64,000 bases of DNA from Desulfurococcales archaeon (GCA_015523295.1 WAKQ01000014.1:16477-80476), one strand, 5' to 3'; positions 51,332 through 61,796 are shown, counted from the first letter of the stretch. Translations and numbers: made by a program. Notes: generated by a model not told the origin, from the sequence alone.

Positions 51332-52210
51332 TCACTTTGTACTAGAGGATACGCGAGAGCCGTAATAGGCGTTAAGGTAATCACTAAATTTCCTAAGATA
51401 GCCCTTCAGCACAATCTCAGGGGCTTGAGAGTGTCTAACTATTGAAATGGTCCAATTAGTCAGACTCCTTGTGCTTTCCTCATCCATTGTGAAGACTTTC
51501 GAGTGAAACTCTTGCAAATACTCGCTTAACGTGCTCAAGATTTTATCCTTTTCTAGGACTAGACCAAGTTCTTTAGCTATAAAGTAGGCATAAACTAAAA
51601 GTATGATATTAGCGAAGGCCTGCAGATTTAGGATGTTGCTCAATCTACTTAGGCGCCTCTTTGTTGCCAGAGCTGTTTCTCTGAGCGTTGTCTTAATGTT
51701 TAGTCGAATTCCTGAAATGTTTCTTCGTATTATGCTGTTGACGAGATCCTGTGTGGCTTTCATAGATGGGAAGTAAGTCCTAAATTTATCCTCAACCACG
51801 CTTCTCAGGTTAGCCCCCAGCGACTCTATAATGTTCCAGTTGGGAAATCCTCCCCTTTTAAGCATTTTAAGTATTCTAAAGCCTGTTGTCAGTACCTCAG
51901 AGAAAAGAATTAAAGCTTCCTCCAACCCCTCCAGGATTTCCTTTCTTCTATCTCTAAATTCGATGTACTGCATTATATAATGGACGTATTCCATAATTCC
52001 TGTCTTGATTGAGATCATAAGGCTTCCTCCGTCATAAGTGTTTATTATGAGTTCATTCCCTTCTACGCTTACTTTGGAAACATTACTTAGGTCTAAAGTC
52101 AATGATGTCTTCCCTTCATAGCTTTTCACTACTATCCTTCCTTTTAGAATGGTGAGTTCACAGGTGAATTCACTACCTCCCCATATACAAGTACTTAGCA
52201 TGGCTGTCAC
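51332..52210 (-). CDS. Hypothetical protein: N-terminal beta-rich (PH/GRAM-like?) region followed by helices
   Basis: N-terminal beta-strand-like pattern 'CELTILKGRIVVKSYEGKTSLTLDLSNVSKVSVEGNELIINTYDGGSLMISIKTGI'; GTGA overlap with upstream gene. Confidence 0.6.
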   Translation of the reverse strand: MTAMLSTCIWGGSEFTCELTILKGRIVVKSYEGKTSLTLDLSNVSKVSVEGNELIINTYDGGSLMISIKTGIMEYVHYIMQYIEFRDRRKEILEGLEEALILFSEVLTTGFRILKMLKRGGFPNWNIIESLGANLRSVVEDKFRTYFPSMKATQDLVNSIIRRNISGIRLNIKTTLRETALATKRRLSRLSNILNLQAFANIILLVYAYFIAKELGLVLEKDKILSTLSEYLQEFHSKVFTMDEESTRSLTNWTISIVRHSQAPEIVLKGYLRKFSDYLNAYYGSRVSSSTK

Positions 52211-54378
52211 TTCCTATAAAGCATTCCTCCTTTTACGGTTACATCTTTCCGATATGTAACATAAAGTCTCAGAAACCAGAGAAGAGCGTCTTTAGTGAAG
52301 GGTAGCTCATCTATCGGGGCTCTGCCGTTACTTACTTCTAGTTTCCAGTCTAGGAAGTCGAAAACCATGGGGATTATGGATGCTCTTAACTTTATGAGAA
52401 AGGCATTGTTAACTAAAGTAAATACTCGTTTAAGAGTATCAGGAGCTATTCGGGATAGATGCATCAGCACTTCATAAGATGGTTTTTTATTCTCTATATA
52501 GGCTCTAAAGCTCCCAATTTCATCACTTAATACATTTAACCTTCTTTCTAAATCATCAACTAAACTCACAATATTGGTTATCCCCTTAATTTCATAACTG
52601 GCTAGCTCAGCCCTTACTCTACTTAAATCCATGTATGCTTTTTCAAACACTTTCAGATACTCTTCAGCAAAGACCCGGGTTTTCTCGTTGATTAGCTTTG
52701 TAGCAAGATGAATGGGCGGCATACTCTCGGGAATGTCCTTTGATACTTCTACCATATTTCTCAACTGTTTTAAGGCAAAAGATTCCTCTACTTGAATGAA
52801 ATCCTCCTCTTTTAGGAGTTCCTTGAGGAAGGCCTTTAAATCAGTCAACCTCCTGTAAGATTCACTTACCCTAATCCTGACTGACTGGAGAATCCTGCTA
52901 GAAACATTGAGTAGTTCACTTACCTGGGTTAGTGGTGATTCAGTATCCCTGCAAACATTCTCATCAACTGTGAAATCAATACCTAGAAAGTTCCTCACTT
53001 CTCTAAGCCAGGCTTTAAGTGCTTCAAACAATGCATTACAGGACTCTCTCGATATTCTTTTGAGTATCTCTATCCTCAGAGGAAGTTCACTTGCTGAACC
53101 TATATTTGATAGGAGAGCTAACTCTTTTACATCTATGAATTCGTTTCCAGAATGCATTTTAATATAAGGTGATGCTTTCCTTAAAATTTCTACAGCGCTT
53201 CTATATTCTGAGAGTATGACGTTTTCAATATCATCCAATGTATTAGAAACTATCCTGCACTTTCTTTCAATTGCCTTTAAACTGCCATAGCTTTTCTTAC
53301 CGCTCCTGAAATCCTCCATCAACTCCTTTACGTATTCCTCTAACTCCTCAATTCTGGCCTGTGACTCTATCAGTTTGGCAGTCCTTATACCTGCACTCTG
53401 CAAAAGTGAAATTGCCTTCCTTAATTCCTTAATCTTAGTCTTTACGTTTCTATGAATTTCTGCTATATTTGACCTAAGTCTAGCTTTCTCAGCAATAAGA
53501 AAGTGTAAATCTTTAACGCCTACTGCTGAAATCGGTAGAGCTATACCTAAAATTAAAGATAGCATATTATGGTAGGATATTATCTGCTTATCCGATAGGA
53601 GGGAGTAGGAGAAGATAATCACTGTGAAAATATAGACTAAAGCTGGAATTGTTGATGCTATGGAGTGTTCGAGGATTTTAGCTGGCGTCCTAGGTTCTTT
53701 AAAGTGAATACTCCCTAGGAGGGCTATTACCCCACCAATGAGGAATCCTATTATCCAGGAAATATAGTATATGAGGACCGCATAAGAATAACCTAGCGAA
53801 GTAATACTCACAAAACCCGTAACGATATGCGGAACCCTTCCTAAGTCAGTTGCCGTGTTAGCAAGGCCTACTATAGGGATTAAAGAGAAAATCGATGTAA
53901 GGATTAAGCCACCAAGCGATTTTCTGGAAATAACTAATGCTACGGAGAGAGAGGCTATTCCTGTGACTATCCTTATATCCAATCCCCATAGGCCCAGGAG
54001 AAGCGCCATCAAATAGGCTATTTGAGGAAGCAGTTCTATAGTCTTAAGCTCCTTTATAACGTTCCAAACCCCTGCAAGGACTGGGAGAAATGAAGAAGCT
54101 AGAAGGAATTCGCTTGCAATGGAAGGTTGAGGTGCGTTATAAGTGGCAACTGAATACCCCATAAGCAGGAGAATCCCATAGGATATATATGTCAGGAGGA
54201 GAGGAGCGCTTTCGCCCTTGGGAGAGTATCGGTATATTATCCCTGAACCAATAATCAGTACTGCTAATGAAGCGACAAGCGCGAGGTTAAGGGGGTTATG
54301 AAATAAGCCGAACTTAATTGCGAGAGCGATGAGCCATAGAGAGAGCATTACTGAGATAACTAGAGGGCCTTTCCTCAT
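52207..54378 (-). CDS. Large membrane protein: N-terminal polytopic TM region, C-terminal long helical/coiled-coil region
   Basis: About 290 N-terminal residues dominated by hydrophobic helices; remainder charged and helical ('HRNVKTKIKELRKAISLLQSAGIRTAKLIESQARIEELEEYVKELMEDF'). ATGA overlap with upstream gene. Confidence 0.7.
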   Translation of the reverse strand: MRKGPLVISVMLSLWLIALAIKFGLFHNPLNLALVASLAVLIIGSGIIYRYSPKGESAPLLLTYISYGILLLMGYSVATYNAPQPSIASEFLLASSFLPVLAGVWNVIKELKTIELLPQIAYLMALLLGLWGLDIRIVTGIASLSVALVISRKSLGGLILTSIFSLIPIVGLANTATDLGRVPHIVTGFVSITSLGYSYAVLIYYISWIIGFLIGGVIALLGSIHFKEPRTPAKILEHSIASTIPALVYIFTVIIFSYSLLSDKQIISYHNMLSLILGIALPISAVGVKDLHFLIAEKARLRSNIAEIHRNVKTKIKELRKAISLLQSAGIRTAKLIESQARIEELEEYVKELMEDFRSGKKSYGSLKAIERKCRIVSNTLDDIENVILSEYRSAVEILRKASPYIKMHSGNEFIDVKELALLSNIGSASELPLRIEILKRISRESCNALFEALKAWLREVRNFLGIDFTVDENVCRDTESPLTQVSELLNVSSRILQSVRIRVSESYRRLTDLKAFLKELLKEEDFIQVEESFALKQLRNMVEVSKDIPESMPPIHLATKLINEKTRVFAEEYLKVFEKAYMDLSRVRAELASYEIKGITNIVSLVDDLERRLNVLSDEIGSFRAYIENKKPSYEVLMHLSRIAPDTLKRVFTLVNNAFLIKLRASIIPMVFDFLDWKLEVSNGRAPIDELPFTKDALLWFLRLYVTYRKDVTVKGGMLYRK

Positions 54379-55421
54379 TTTCTAAAACCCCCTAGCCTTT
54401 GAAGAAATTCTTCGAAACCACGTAAAATTCTATATTCTCGAGCGTAAACCGTTATATCATGGTAGTAATCTCTTCGGCTTAGGAAGAAAGATGCGCACTC
54501 CCTCAGTAGATCATTAATGAATGACGTATGCTCTTCTGCTATACCAATATTTAAAATATTGTCTGATGCGGCAGTTTTAGAAGCCAGGGAGATCCATCCT
54601 TCATGCTTGGAAGCCCATTCTATTTCGCTATCGGCTATAAATCTTTGAGGCCCTTCTATAATTAGAAATGCCTTTCTTGCTTGGAAGTGAGTTCCCCAGT
54701 TTATGAATTTAGCGAACTCGATAAAGCCGGCTAAGTCTCTGAAAATATCCGGAGACCTTGTTGAGAAACATGTAAGCTGAAGCAATCTAGACTTTCTATC
54801 ATGTTCTCCACCAAAATCCAACGCCTTGGGAACATTTGACATGCACCATTTACGGAGAGAATGGATTTCATGACTAGAGAGGTAGTTTTCTAGCCTGTTT
54901 AGAGGGATCAAGTAAATGACATCAACTAACCCCTCCGTCAGTAATGCAGCTATGAAAGATAAAACGTCGAGTTTTTTATCGGGCTTCCATAAAGGATCAA
55001 CCTCTATAACGGCGTGAACAAAGGCTTCCCTATTCACTTCTCTTAAGTCCTTTAAGCTATAGTATATGAGTGCTTCTCCTACTGTTAAAGGTGGAAGGGC
55101 TATTAAAATATGTTTAAGGTCCGAAATCATCAAAGACTCCATCTTTCTAAGTGAATCGCTAAGCTTTTCAGGAGTTATTGATACCCAAAAATCATTTTTA
55201 ATTTCAGGAACCTGAATATGATAAGTGTCTGTGTCTGTACTAGGTTCCTGAGTGTCGCTATTTAGAATGAGGGAAGCAGCTCTCTTTCCTGTTGGCTTCG
55301 GTAAAAGGTGTGATTTTTCTTGGGATGTTATCGTCAAGGTTTCATAGTCAACCAGTTCTATATTCTCTATTAGCCTATCTATGTAGTCGGAAACTACACT
55401 AATCTCCACGCTCATGCCCAT
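54375..55421 (-). CDS. Candidate degenerate FtsZ/tubulin-superfamily protein lacking GTP-binding loops (hypothesis)
   Basis: 'FVHAVIEVDPLWKPDKKLDVLSFIAALLTEGLVDVIYLIPLNRL' parallels FtsZ 'LTVAVVT.PF..EG......A...L......DTL(I/V)VIPN(D/E)(R/K)L'; 'ARKAFLIIEGPQRFIADSEIEWASKHE' parallels the C-domain 'GALI...GP.DLTL.E'; 'ASDNILNIGIAEE' parallels 'PNA.IIWGA.IDE'. No GGGTGTG loop. Confidence 0.35.
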   Translation of the reverse strand: MGMSVEISVVSDYIDRLIENIELVDYETLTITSQEKSHLLPKPTGKRAASLILNSDTQEPSTDTDTYHIQVPEIKNDFWVSITPEKLSDSLRKMESLMISDLKHILIALPPLTVGEALIYYSLKDLREVNREAFVHAVIEVDPLWKPDKKLDVLSFIAALLTEGLVDVIYLIPLNRLENYLSSHEIHSLRKWCMSNVPKALDFGGEHDRKSRLLQLTCFSTRSPDIFRDLAGFIEFAKFINWGTHFQARKAFLIIEGPQRFIADSEIEWASKHEGWISLASKTAASDNILNIGIAEEHTSFINDLLRECASFFLSRRDYYHDITVYAREYRILRGFEEFLQRLGGFRK

Positions 55422-57517: not shown

Positions 57518-58240
57518 ATGAGGGAGGAAATGGGACTGCTTAACCTGCTATGCTATCCTTCAGGGAGTATGAAGTGTATCGAAAACAGGTGGAAAACACT
57601 CCGGGGTATAGGAGTGAGAAGGCTTCTGAGCTGTGGTAGAGTCTCTATAGGGAGATACAGGGTTTTAGGTAAAGGTCATTCATCTGTGGTTTTAGCTGCA
57701 GAGATGGAGGAGGGCTTAAAGGTAGCTGTGAAGGTTTTGAGAAGTGATTCGAAAAGAGAGGATCTTTTATTAGAATGTCGCTTTATGAGGCGGGCCTACC
57801 CAGTTGCTCCTAAGGTCTATGCCTGCGTTAATTCGATGATAGTGATGGAGCTTCTTGACGGGTTTCATTTAAGTGAGTTCCTGGATAATGTAGGCAACTG
57901 TAAGGAGTTCATGCTATTGGTGGCTAAGATTTCAGAAGCTGTGAACTGGCTGGACAGGATAGGAGTAAATCATAAAGAACTTGTCAATCCTCTAAAGCAT
58001 GTTTTCATCCTTCATGACGGCAGAATCAAAATTATTGACTATGAAACTGCTTCATCAGGCTTTGGTTGTAACTTGTGTAGTTTTCTCTCATGGGTTTTTC
58101 GTCACTCTAGAACCAAGATTGACTGTTTAAGATCTAATCCTTCGTCGATGGATGTAATTAGACGCTTGCTCAAAAATTATAAGAATGGAAGGCTGGATAT
58201 GTTCCAATCCATTATTAAGATCCTAATTGGCCTCACCTAA
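57518..58240 (+). CDS. Archaeal predicted Ser/Thr protein kinase (COG2112-like)
   Basis: 'VLGKGHSSVVLAAEMEEGLKVAVKVLRSDS', 'DRIGVNHKELVNPLKHVFILHDGRIKIIDYETAS'. Confidence 0.8.
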   Translation: MREEMGLLNLLCYPSGSMKCIENRWKTLRGIGVRRLLSCGRVSIGRYRVLGKGHSSVVLAAEMEEGLKVAVKVLRSDSKREDLLLECRFMRRAYPVAPKVYACVNSMIVMELLDGFHLSEFLDNVGNCKEFMLLVAKISEAVNWLDRIGVNHKELVNPLKHVFILHDGRIKIIDYETASSGFGCNLCSFLSWVFRHSRTKIDCLRSNPSSMDVIRRLLKNYKNGRLDMFQSIIKILIGLT

Positions 58241-58958
58241 TGAGATACACTCTTATGTTTTTACCGACTTTACCGTGGGAAAGAAAATCCTTTAATTCCT
58301 TTGCATTTCTCGAGCTTAGGGCCGACCTAAGCCTGCTTAAGGCTATATAATCCTCTTCAAGGAAAGGCCCCTCACGTAGGATAAATAATTTACAGTCTAG
58401 GGAAATTATGCCCCCGCCTAAACCGCCATCCAGGAGTAGGTTAATTAAGGTTCTAATGTCGTGAGGTGAGGGCATACATCCATAGGGATGTGTGTGTGCT
58501 GATGCGACAGCCTTGACATTGGGTATTATCACTTTATTTACATCCCCTTCAAGCTCTAAGGCCCTCCCATCTCTTAATATGATAAACATATACTCAATCC
58601 CTTCTGCTCTAGTTCTCACAGCTGGACTAGTTAAGTGGGATGTAGCAAGCCTTATGAATAGGTCAGAGGCTTTTTTATAAAGTCTTTGAAGTTCTTCACC
58701 CCTATCACAGGAGGTTATCGAGTAGTGTCGGAGAAGTCCTCTGTCTACGGCCTCATCAAGCTCGTATCCCCCTTCTGGTGGCTCTTCACAAGATCTATAG
58801 CAGATCAGGGCCTCATCATCCTCTAAAGCGACTTTAAGGTCTCTACATCCCCACACGCCAGCTAGCGTCTCGAGAGCGTTGATCATCAGGTTAAGCATGG
58901 CAAGCTTTCTGGTCTTAGCAGATGTTACTTCAAACTCTGCATGTCGCCTTATATCCAA
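58233..58958 (-). CDS. Conserved hypothetical with JAB1/JAMM-like 'HTHPYGCMPSPHD' motif
   Basis: 'VKAVASAHTHPYGCMPSPHDIRTLINLLLDGGLGGGIISLDCKLFILREGP' resembles JAMM HxHPxxxxxxSxxD with one residue fewer. Confidence 0.5.
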   Translation of the reverse strand: MDIRRHAEFEVTSAKTRKLAMLNLMINALETLAGVWGCRDLKVALEDDEALICYRSCEEPPEGGYELDEAVDRGLLRHYSITSCDRGEELQRLYKKASDLFIRLATSHLTSPAVRTRAEGIEYMFIILRDGRALELEGDVNKVIIPNVKAVASAHTHPYGCMPSPHDIRTLINLLLDGGLGGGIISLDCKLFILREGPFLEEDYIALSRLRSALSSRNAKELKDFLSHGKVGKNIRVYLIR

Positions 58959-61097: not shown

Positions 61098-61796
61098 TTG
61101 GGGGTAAGGTTGTTGAGTAAGGGTGAGCTCTTAGAGCTTCTTAAGGGATTAAATGAGGGCGGAGGTTGCCTAAGCTCCGAGGAGTTGAAGGACATCTTTA
61201 AGAAATATGCAACTCTGCTTCCAGAGGGAGTCACATATAAGGGGATTGACGGAGAGTTATGTGTTAGGTCGTTAGTTCCTCTAGCCTTAAATGGGCTATC
61301 GCTTGGTTTATCAGCGTATACCGTCTCCAAGTACCTTAACTGGAAGGATTTTGAGGTTCTTGTTAAGCACTACCTAGAGTTGAGCGGATATGAGGCAGTA
61401 AGATCGGTGAGACTTAAGAACAGGAGATATGAGATAGATGTTCTAGCTACTGACTCGATTAGAGGATTAGGGCTAGCTATAGATTGCAAACATTGGTCAC
61501 CGGGGTACTCTAAACGAGGCAAGCTAGGGGCTGTGGCTGAGCTGCATAGGAGTAAAGTCGAGTTATTAGCTAGCGAATGTAATAAGCACCTAACGTCCAT
61601 CCCCGGATTAAGGGGGTGTAAGTGGTTGCTGCCAGTAGTGGTTACACTTACAGGTTCAGTTAGGGGGTATTTCAGAGGGAGCTTTATAGTCCCTGTAGAG
61701 AGTCTAAGGGACTTTATAGTGAGGCTTGATTTCTATGTTGACCTTCTGAGTGGAGATGAAGGTATGGTGCTCAACCCATGCTTCTCGGAGGGCTAA
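61098..61796 (+). CDS. Mrr-like PD-(D/E)XK restriction-endonuclease-fold protein
   Basis: 'FEVLVKHYLELSGYEAVRSVRLKNRRYEIDVLATDSIRGLGLAIDCKHW' (D...xDCKxW). Start probably TTG 61110/61113. Confidence 0.78.
   Translation: MGVRLLSKGELLELLKGLNEGGGCLSSEELKDIFKKYATLLPEGVTYKGIDGELCVRSLVPLALNGLSLGLSAYTVSKYLNWKDFEVLVKHYLELSGYEAVRSVRLKNRRYEIDVLATDSIRGLGLAIDCKHWSPGYSKRGKLGAVAELHRSKVELLASECNKHLTSIPGLRGCKWLLPVVVTLTGSVRGYFRGSFIVPVESLRDFIVRLDFYVDLLSGDEGMVLNPCFSEG

Follow-up and report, generated by a model that had tools for sequence, protein, structure and literature searches.

A predicted tubulin-fold protein without GTP-binding loops heads a conserved membrane operon in one family of Sulfolobales

The 348-aa protein P0001, encoded within the 64,000-nucleotide stretch of archaeal DNA analysed here (GCA_015523295.1 WAKQ01000014.1:16477-80476, hereafter the window), is probably a tubulin-fold pseudo-GTPase that represents the counterpart of the FtsZ-like protein FtsZl1; it would act independently of GTP as a scaffold or adaptor, with its neighbour P0002 anchoring it to the membrane. 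The computed evidence comprised a predicted fold, missing nucleotide loops, a conserved operon, homology between P0002 and D3, the membrane partner of FtsZl1, and no full-length FtsZl1 in the P0001-bearing genomes searched. Apart from a few divergent FtsZl1 proteins, FtsZ is usually said to be missing from Crenarchaea. In one whole GTDB family, a protein of predicted tubulin fold with no GTP machinery would be kept as part of a conserved membrane operon, having gone unnoticed in sequence searches. The features discussed below are listed in Table 1.

Table 1 Features of the P0001 locus, in window coordinates.
Feature	Coordinates	Strand	Basis or remark
P0001, predicted tubulin/FtsZ-fold protein without GTP-binding loops, 348 aa	54375..55421	-	ORF, family, AlphaFold2, Foldseek, dN/dS
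P0002, 723 aa, multi-TM N-terminus, coiled-coil-like part, C-terminal domain	52207..54378	-	homologous to D3
P0003, 292 aa, beta-rich N-terminus, helical remainder	51332..52210	-	third operon gene in all spanned loci
TATA-like stretch TTTAATAATA, about 25 nt before the P0001 start codon	55438..55447	-	read from sequence
T1-loop position, residues 34-39, QEKSHL after S1 (28-33), no GxGG	55305..55322	-	DSSP of model; alignment
T4 'tubulin signature' position, residues 110-113, PPLT, between S4 and H4, GGGTGTG absent	55083..55094	-	DSSP of model; alignment
T7/H8 position, residues 204-211, H7 then S7	54789..54812	-	DSSP of model; alignment

The P0001 ORF lies exactly where an earlier note, made from the sequence, had placed it, and every segment quoted there for the protein is present in the translation. 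Relatives (~340 aa) occur in 23/31 species genomes of the window's own GTDB family, a group of hot-spring archaea within the Sulfolobales. They are mostly 316-364 aa long and share between about 12% and 32% identity with the window protein. No residue is invariant across the family and two, L123 and N152, are nearly so. Between close pairs of relatives dN/dS was 0.08-0.21, indicative of purifying selection and therefore of a working gene. Pfam, NCBIfam and PDB sequence searches with P0001 or the family profile returned nothing useful, and none of the 23 members had a Pfam match. No convincing relative was found outside the family among 229 genomes of the class Thermoproteia. The class-wide search gave two weak profile matches in other families (E 0.002 and 0.01), and these, like the matches in other families of the order (E > 0.03), were short or frame-broken and were judged to be chance. 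A scan of genome contigs with P0001 alone gave no match; in a contig scan with a close subgroup, the relatives carrying names were uncultured Sulfolobales/Desulfurococcaceae MAGs.

AlphaFold2, run on the 23-member family alignment, predicted P0001 with a mean pLDDT of 84.7 and a pTM of 0.83; all five alignment-based models had mean pLDDT values of 80-85, and prediction from the single sequence, with no alignment, was poor (pLDDT 34.8). The best 50 Foldseek matches of the model in the PDB were exclusively FtsZ, CetZ, TubZ or tubulin (E 1.5e-11 to 1.1e-9, probability 1.00), the closest being M. jannaschii FtsZ (1w5e), B. cereus TubZ (4ei7) and Methanosaeta CetZ (3zid), at 10-12% structural identity. 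Alignments covered nearly the entire protein, as the earlier note had anticipated for residues of about 100-340, with TM-scores mostly of 0.47-0.62 and of 0.37 in one case. In the Foldseek viral library, the matches named for cell division were FtsZ-like phage proteins, and the top match was of the phage FtsZ type (E 3.3e-11). At the level of the predicted fold, the resemblance to FtsZ/tubulin exceeds chance (best E 1.5e-11).

DSSP of the model gave the element order of FtsZ/tubulin (S1..S6-H7-S7-H9-S8-H10-S9-S10 plus two C-terminal helices), the names of strands and helices being assigned by us from standard FtsZ topology. The predicted two-domain tubulin fold thus comprised an N-domain (S1 28-33, S2 48-54, S3 66-70, H3 84-97, S4 104-109, H4 113-129, S5 134-140, H5 147-162, S6 168-172), the core helix H7 (183-203) and a C-domain (S7 212-221, H9 230-242, S8 250-257, H10 264-274, S9 278-285, S10 290-297). 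The segment IALPPLTVGEALIYY, quoted in the earlier note, falls on the S4-T4-H4 of FtsZ, reading S4, PPL and H4 in the model, and 'FVHAVIEVDPL...DVIYLIPLNRL' corresponds to S5-H5-S6-T6. The C-domain matches of the earlier note fared unevenly: 'KAFLIIEGPQRF..IEWAS' was indeed S8-H10, but SDNILNIGIAEE was off by one strand, being S10 in the model and lying just after S9 ('EGWISLASKT').

Judged from this model and the alignment, P0001 has none of the elements that bind nucleotide (T1, T4) or hydrolyse it (T7/H8). At the structurally equivalent places, GxGG (T1) and GGGTG(S/T)G (T4) were absent in 23/23 family members, and no tubulin GTP-loop motif occurred anywhere in these sequences. The loss of the glycine-rich loops GxGG and GGGTGTG, noted earlier for the window protein, is therefore family-wide and extends to T7/H8. 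The T4 place reads ARESS, SRVQA or ATPRP in other members. In the P0001 model, H7 runs almost straight into S7, and there is therefore no room for H8 or a T7 loop. The T7 loop of FtsZ carries a catalytic acid; in the 23-member alignment the T7/H8 segment was variable and held no conserved acid.

Profile comparison did not reproduce the structural result. In hhalign, the P0001 family scored inside the shuffled-control range against FtsZ and FtsZl1 and gave no signal against thaumarchaeal FtsZ; the positive controls were recovered, FtsZ being matched by FtsZl1 at 90.7% and by thaumarchaeal FtsZ at 99.6%. P0001 also gave no significant match to PF00091 or PF13809. The profile-profile tubulin match expected in the earlier note was thus not obtained at the available alignment depth, although distant FtsZ relatives were found. 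Given these null results we do not claim sequence homology. They limit the claim of common descent for P0001 and FtsZ, which rests on fold and gene order, and leave the fold assignment resting on one predicted model, with moderate TM-scores of 0.5-0.6.

P0001 is the first gene of a three-gene operon, in which its end overlaps the start of P0002 by 4 nt and the end of P0002 overlaps the start of P0003 by 4 nt. The order P0001-P0002-P0003 was found in 17/17 fully spanned loci (L136 contains just the start of P0003); two further loci start within P0002 at a contig end. The 17 include genus g8, whose three proteins are so divergent that BLAST scarcely recognises them. P0002 begins with a hydrophobic region (~residues 6-291) containing about ten candidate TM segments, continues with a long stretch of coiled-coil character and has a conserved domain at its C-terminus. 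Many coiled-coil proteins, and the coiled coil of FtsZl1 (77%), also matched P0002, which we put down to coiled-coil noise. P0003, whose secondary structure was judged by eye, has two near-invariant Cys (C8 and C17) within its beta-rich start. From the nucleotide sequence, the operon may own a promoter at the TATA-like stretch and have a leaderless message.

Searching the order with Pfam Tubulin models identified divergent FtsZ-like GTPases in other Sulfolobales families, with no match listed for genomes of the window's own family. This included D1, an FtsZl1 protein of ~880 aa with an intact GGGTGSG and a match to PF13809 Tubulin_2 (E 2.4e-17), which we take to be the FtsZl1 family of Makarova and Koonin. 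Its gene lies in a run of the order D2 - D1 - D3 - 290-360-aa gene, where D2 is about 315 aa with a TM segment at both ends and D3 is 690-870 aa, multi-TM and coiled coil. Families f3, f4 and f11 have the D2-D1-D3 run, as do several genomes from other orders. D3 adjoins the ~880-aa FtsZl1 gene in most loci with both on one contig; in f3 a 330-aa opposite-strand gene separates the two, and in one genome (G053) they lie on separate contigs. Nine genomes from other families had full-length FtsZl1 but no genome of the window's own family did, so that it was absent from every P0001-bearing genome searched. Few crenarchaeal cases of FtsZl1 are known (PMC2875224), with two Sulfolobales mentioned (PMC9723716), and its membrane-remodelling role was proposed from gene context alone (PMC2875224). 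Including other orders of the phylum, the run is more widely spread than these published cases.

The two kinds of operon are linked through their membrane proteins. P0002 and D3 aligned in hhalign at 99.6% (E 5.8e-25) over 425 columns that included the C-terminal motif. Across 211 genomes, the D3 profile (E <= 1e-6) returned solely D3s and own-family P0002s, aligning to the C-terminal domain of the latter. P0003 gave a weak match (51%) to D13, the gene after D3 in the f3 FtsZl1 operons, 9% to a gene at L183 and nothing to D4/D19, and D2, the first gene of the FtsZl1 operon, was not found near P0001. Given the homology of P0002 and D3 and the lack of full-length FtsZl1 in the own family, P0001 appears to occupy the place of FtsZl1. 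The term 'paralogue' in the earlier note is therefore not fully apt: P0001 looks like the counterpart of FtsZl1, because the own-family genomes yielded no full-length FtsZl1 and P0001 sits at the same operon place. We also considered P0001 and P0002 as one split ~1070-aa protein of the SSO1376 type (N-terminal TM plus FtsZ domain). This was dropped because the partner comparison points to the ~880-aa FtsZl1 without an N-terminal TM, followed by D3.

Compared with FtsZl1 (PF13809 Tubulin_2; Makarova & Koonin 2010, PMC2875224), including D1, P0001 has a similar predicted fold, a similar first position before a homologous membrane/coiled-coil gene (D3/P0002) in a membrane-linked operon, and a host order in which canonical FtsZ is likewise absent. 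However, P0001 has 348 aa against ~880, is without GxGG, GGGTGSG and the long C-terminal coiled coil, and has no similarity to FtsZl1 at the profile level. FtsZl1 combines an FtsZ domain and a coiled coil in one protein, whereas P0001 stands alone and the coiled-coil and membrane parts reside in P0002. FtsZ, CetZ and TubZ differ from it in their GTP loops and T7/H8. For the FtsZ of Nitrosopumilus maritimus (Nmar_1262), absence of the GTP-binding motif and of the T7 loop has likewise been reported; this protein did not polymerise when expressed in yeast, and its host also has Cdv proteins (PMC3684127). Like P0001, it is an archaeal FtsZ-type protein reportedly without these elements, but in thaumarchaeal FtsZ relatives a T1-like GLGGAG persists, and both PF00091 and hhalign against FtsZ (99.6%) recognise them. 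P0001, in contrast, has lost T1 too, is recognised by neither and is encoded in a membrane operon. A GTP-loop-less FtsZ is thus already known, whilst the P0001 family, its operon and the link to the FtsZl1 locus appear new, as they were not found in the open-access literature searched.

In the arrangement we favour, P0001 would belong to the FtsZ/tubulin fold as a divergent member without its nucleotide-binding and hydrolysis elements, which have been lost, and would be encoded first in a translationally coupled three-gene operon. P0002, with its multi-TM region, long cytosolic coiled coil and conserved C-terminal domain, would be its membrane anchor and P0003 an accessory protein. The operon would be the counterpart of one that, in other Sulfolobales and related archaea, pairs a P0002-like membrane protein with a GTP-loop-bearing FtsZl1, and P0001 would either descend from the FtsZl1 subunit or have taken over from it. 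We suggest that it acts at the membrane as a static, GTP-independent scaffold or adaptor, not a dynamic GTP-driven filament, and that it may self-assemble through tubulin-like interfaces or else cap or bridge P0002 coiled coils. A further-reaching version, in which an ancestral FtsZl1 system was stripped of its GTP switch, the protein reduced to the fold alone and then kept by purifying selection as a permanent scaffold in a nucleotide-free, membrane-anchored tubulin-fold assembly, is possible but rather doubtful. If true, it would amount to a cytoskeletal system of the tubulin superfamily that works without GTP. P0001 would be a natural experiment in how the tubulin fold is used once its nucleotide switch is gone, be it for assembly or as adaptor or scaffold, and it ties to the barely studied FtsZl1 membrane operon of some other Sulfolobales.

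Several alternatives were weighed against this reading. It is very unlikely that the shallow alignment led AlphaFold to an artefactual tubulin-like model: the 23 sequences, the poor single-sequence prediction and TM-scores of 0.5-0.6 would allow for one, but the five alignment-based models (mean pLDDT 80-85), the pTM of 0.83 and the near full-length Foldseek alignments (E ~1e-11) speak against it, as do the same assignment made by eye from the sequence and the P0002-D3 homology, which points independently to the tubulin superfamily. We also regard it as unlikely that the fold arose by convergence, or from another nucleotide-fold protein, with the adjacency to P0002 a coincidental re-use of the membrane platform. 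The missing sequence signal to any FtsZ family, with hhalign scores within shuffled controls, is what such an origin would leave; yet the best 50 PDB matches were exclusively tubulin superfamily, over both domains and in the same element order, and P0001 sits at the FtsZl1 position beside a homologue of the FtsZl1 membrane partner.

The remaining two accept the fold and differ in function. P0001 might bind nucleotide or another ligand in a rebuilt pocket and polymerise dynamically, its loops being replaced rather than lost. This is compatible with a nucleotide-fold core retained in the model and with long-term purifying selection, but the T1, T4 and T7 positions carry no conserved replacement motif across the family, and the near-invariance of just L123 and N152 also weighs against such a pocket, making it quite improbable. 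It is also unlikely that P0001 forms no part of a membrane scaffold and instead works as a soluble regulator, antagonising or chaperoning another cytoskeletal protein in the way that ARC3 acts on FtsZ2 in plastids. Accessory proteins with FtsZ-type domains provide the precedent: eukaryotic Misato (PMC4510148) and ARC3 (as cited in PMC4593956) have a tubulin/FtsZ-like domain in an accessory, not filament-core, role. These belong to other lineages and have other partners, so that the resemblance is one of kind only. Against a regulator, the Pfam Tubulin search listed nothing in genomes of the own family and P0001 therefore has no obvious FtsZ target, and it is strictly coupled to P0002 and P0003, with 4-nt overlaps.

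The operon-like D2-D1-D3 run occurred at L172, L173, L174-L175, L176, L177, L178, L180, L181 and L183. At L173 (G138:C1:1433540-1436139, Sulfolobales f11), FtsZl1 is split by an in-frame TAG into ORFs of 417 and 454 aa beside open D2 and D3, and the gene is possibly a pseudogene; it may be likened to the transposon-broken FtsZl1 copy reportedly present in S. solfataricus. A second FtsZl1-like form with N-terminal TM segments and GGGTGSG (1016 and 1051 aa, split in L186) was found at L184, L185 and L186, adjoining in the latter two a 769-829-aa membrane protein (D28); it is similar to the SSO1376 type already described. At L066 (G182:C33, Sulfolobales f9), an ORF of 437 aa is tubulin-like (PF00091, E 1e-13) and has its signature altered to GSGGTGAGGG.

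P0002 and P0003 gave no Pfam match to the von Willebrand A protein or P-loop GTPase known from described FtsZl1 operons. About 2 kb upstream lies a small protein-kinase-like ORF (window 57518-58240, +; PF07714, E 3e-9), whose adjacency to the operon is kept in some genera only; protein kinases accompany FtsZl1 operons too (PMC2875224). A 241-aa ORF without a Pfam match (window 58233-58958, -) carries HTHPYGCMPSPHD, an H-x-H-x7-S-x-x-D pattern resembling the JAMM/MPN metalloprotease motif. A Mrr_cat-type restriction endonuclease-like ORF (window 61098-61796, +; PF04471, E 3.9e-6) is conserved near the operon in several genomes of the own family.
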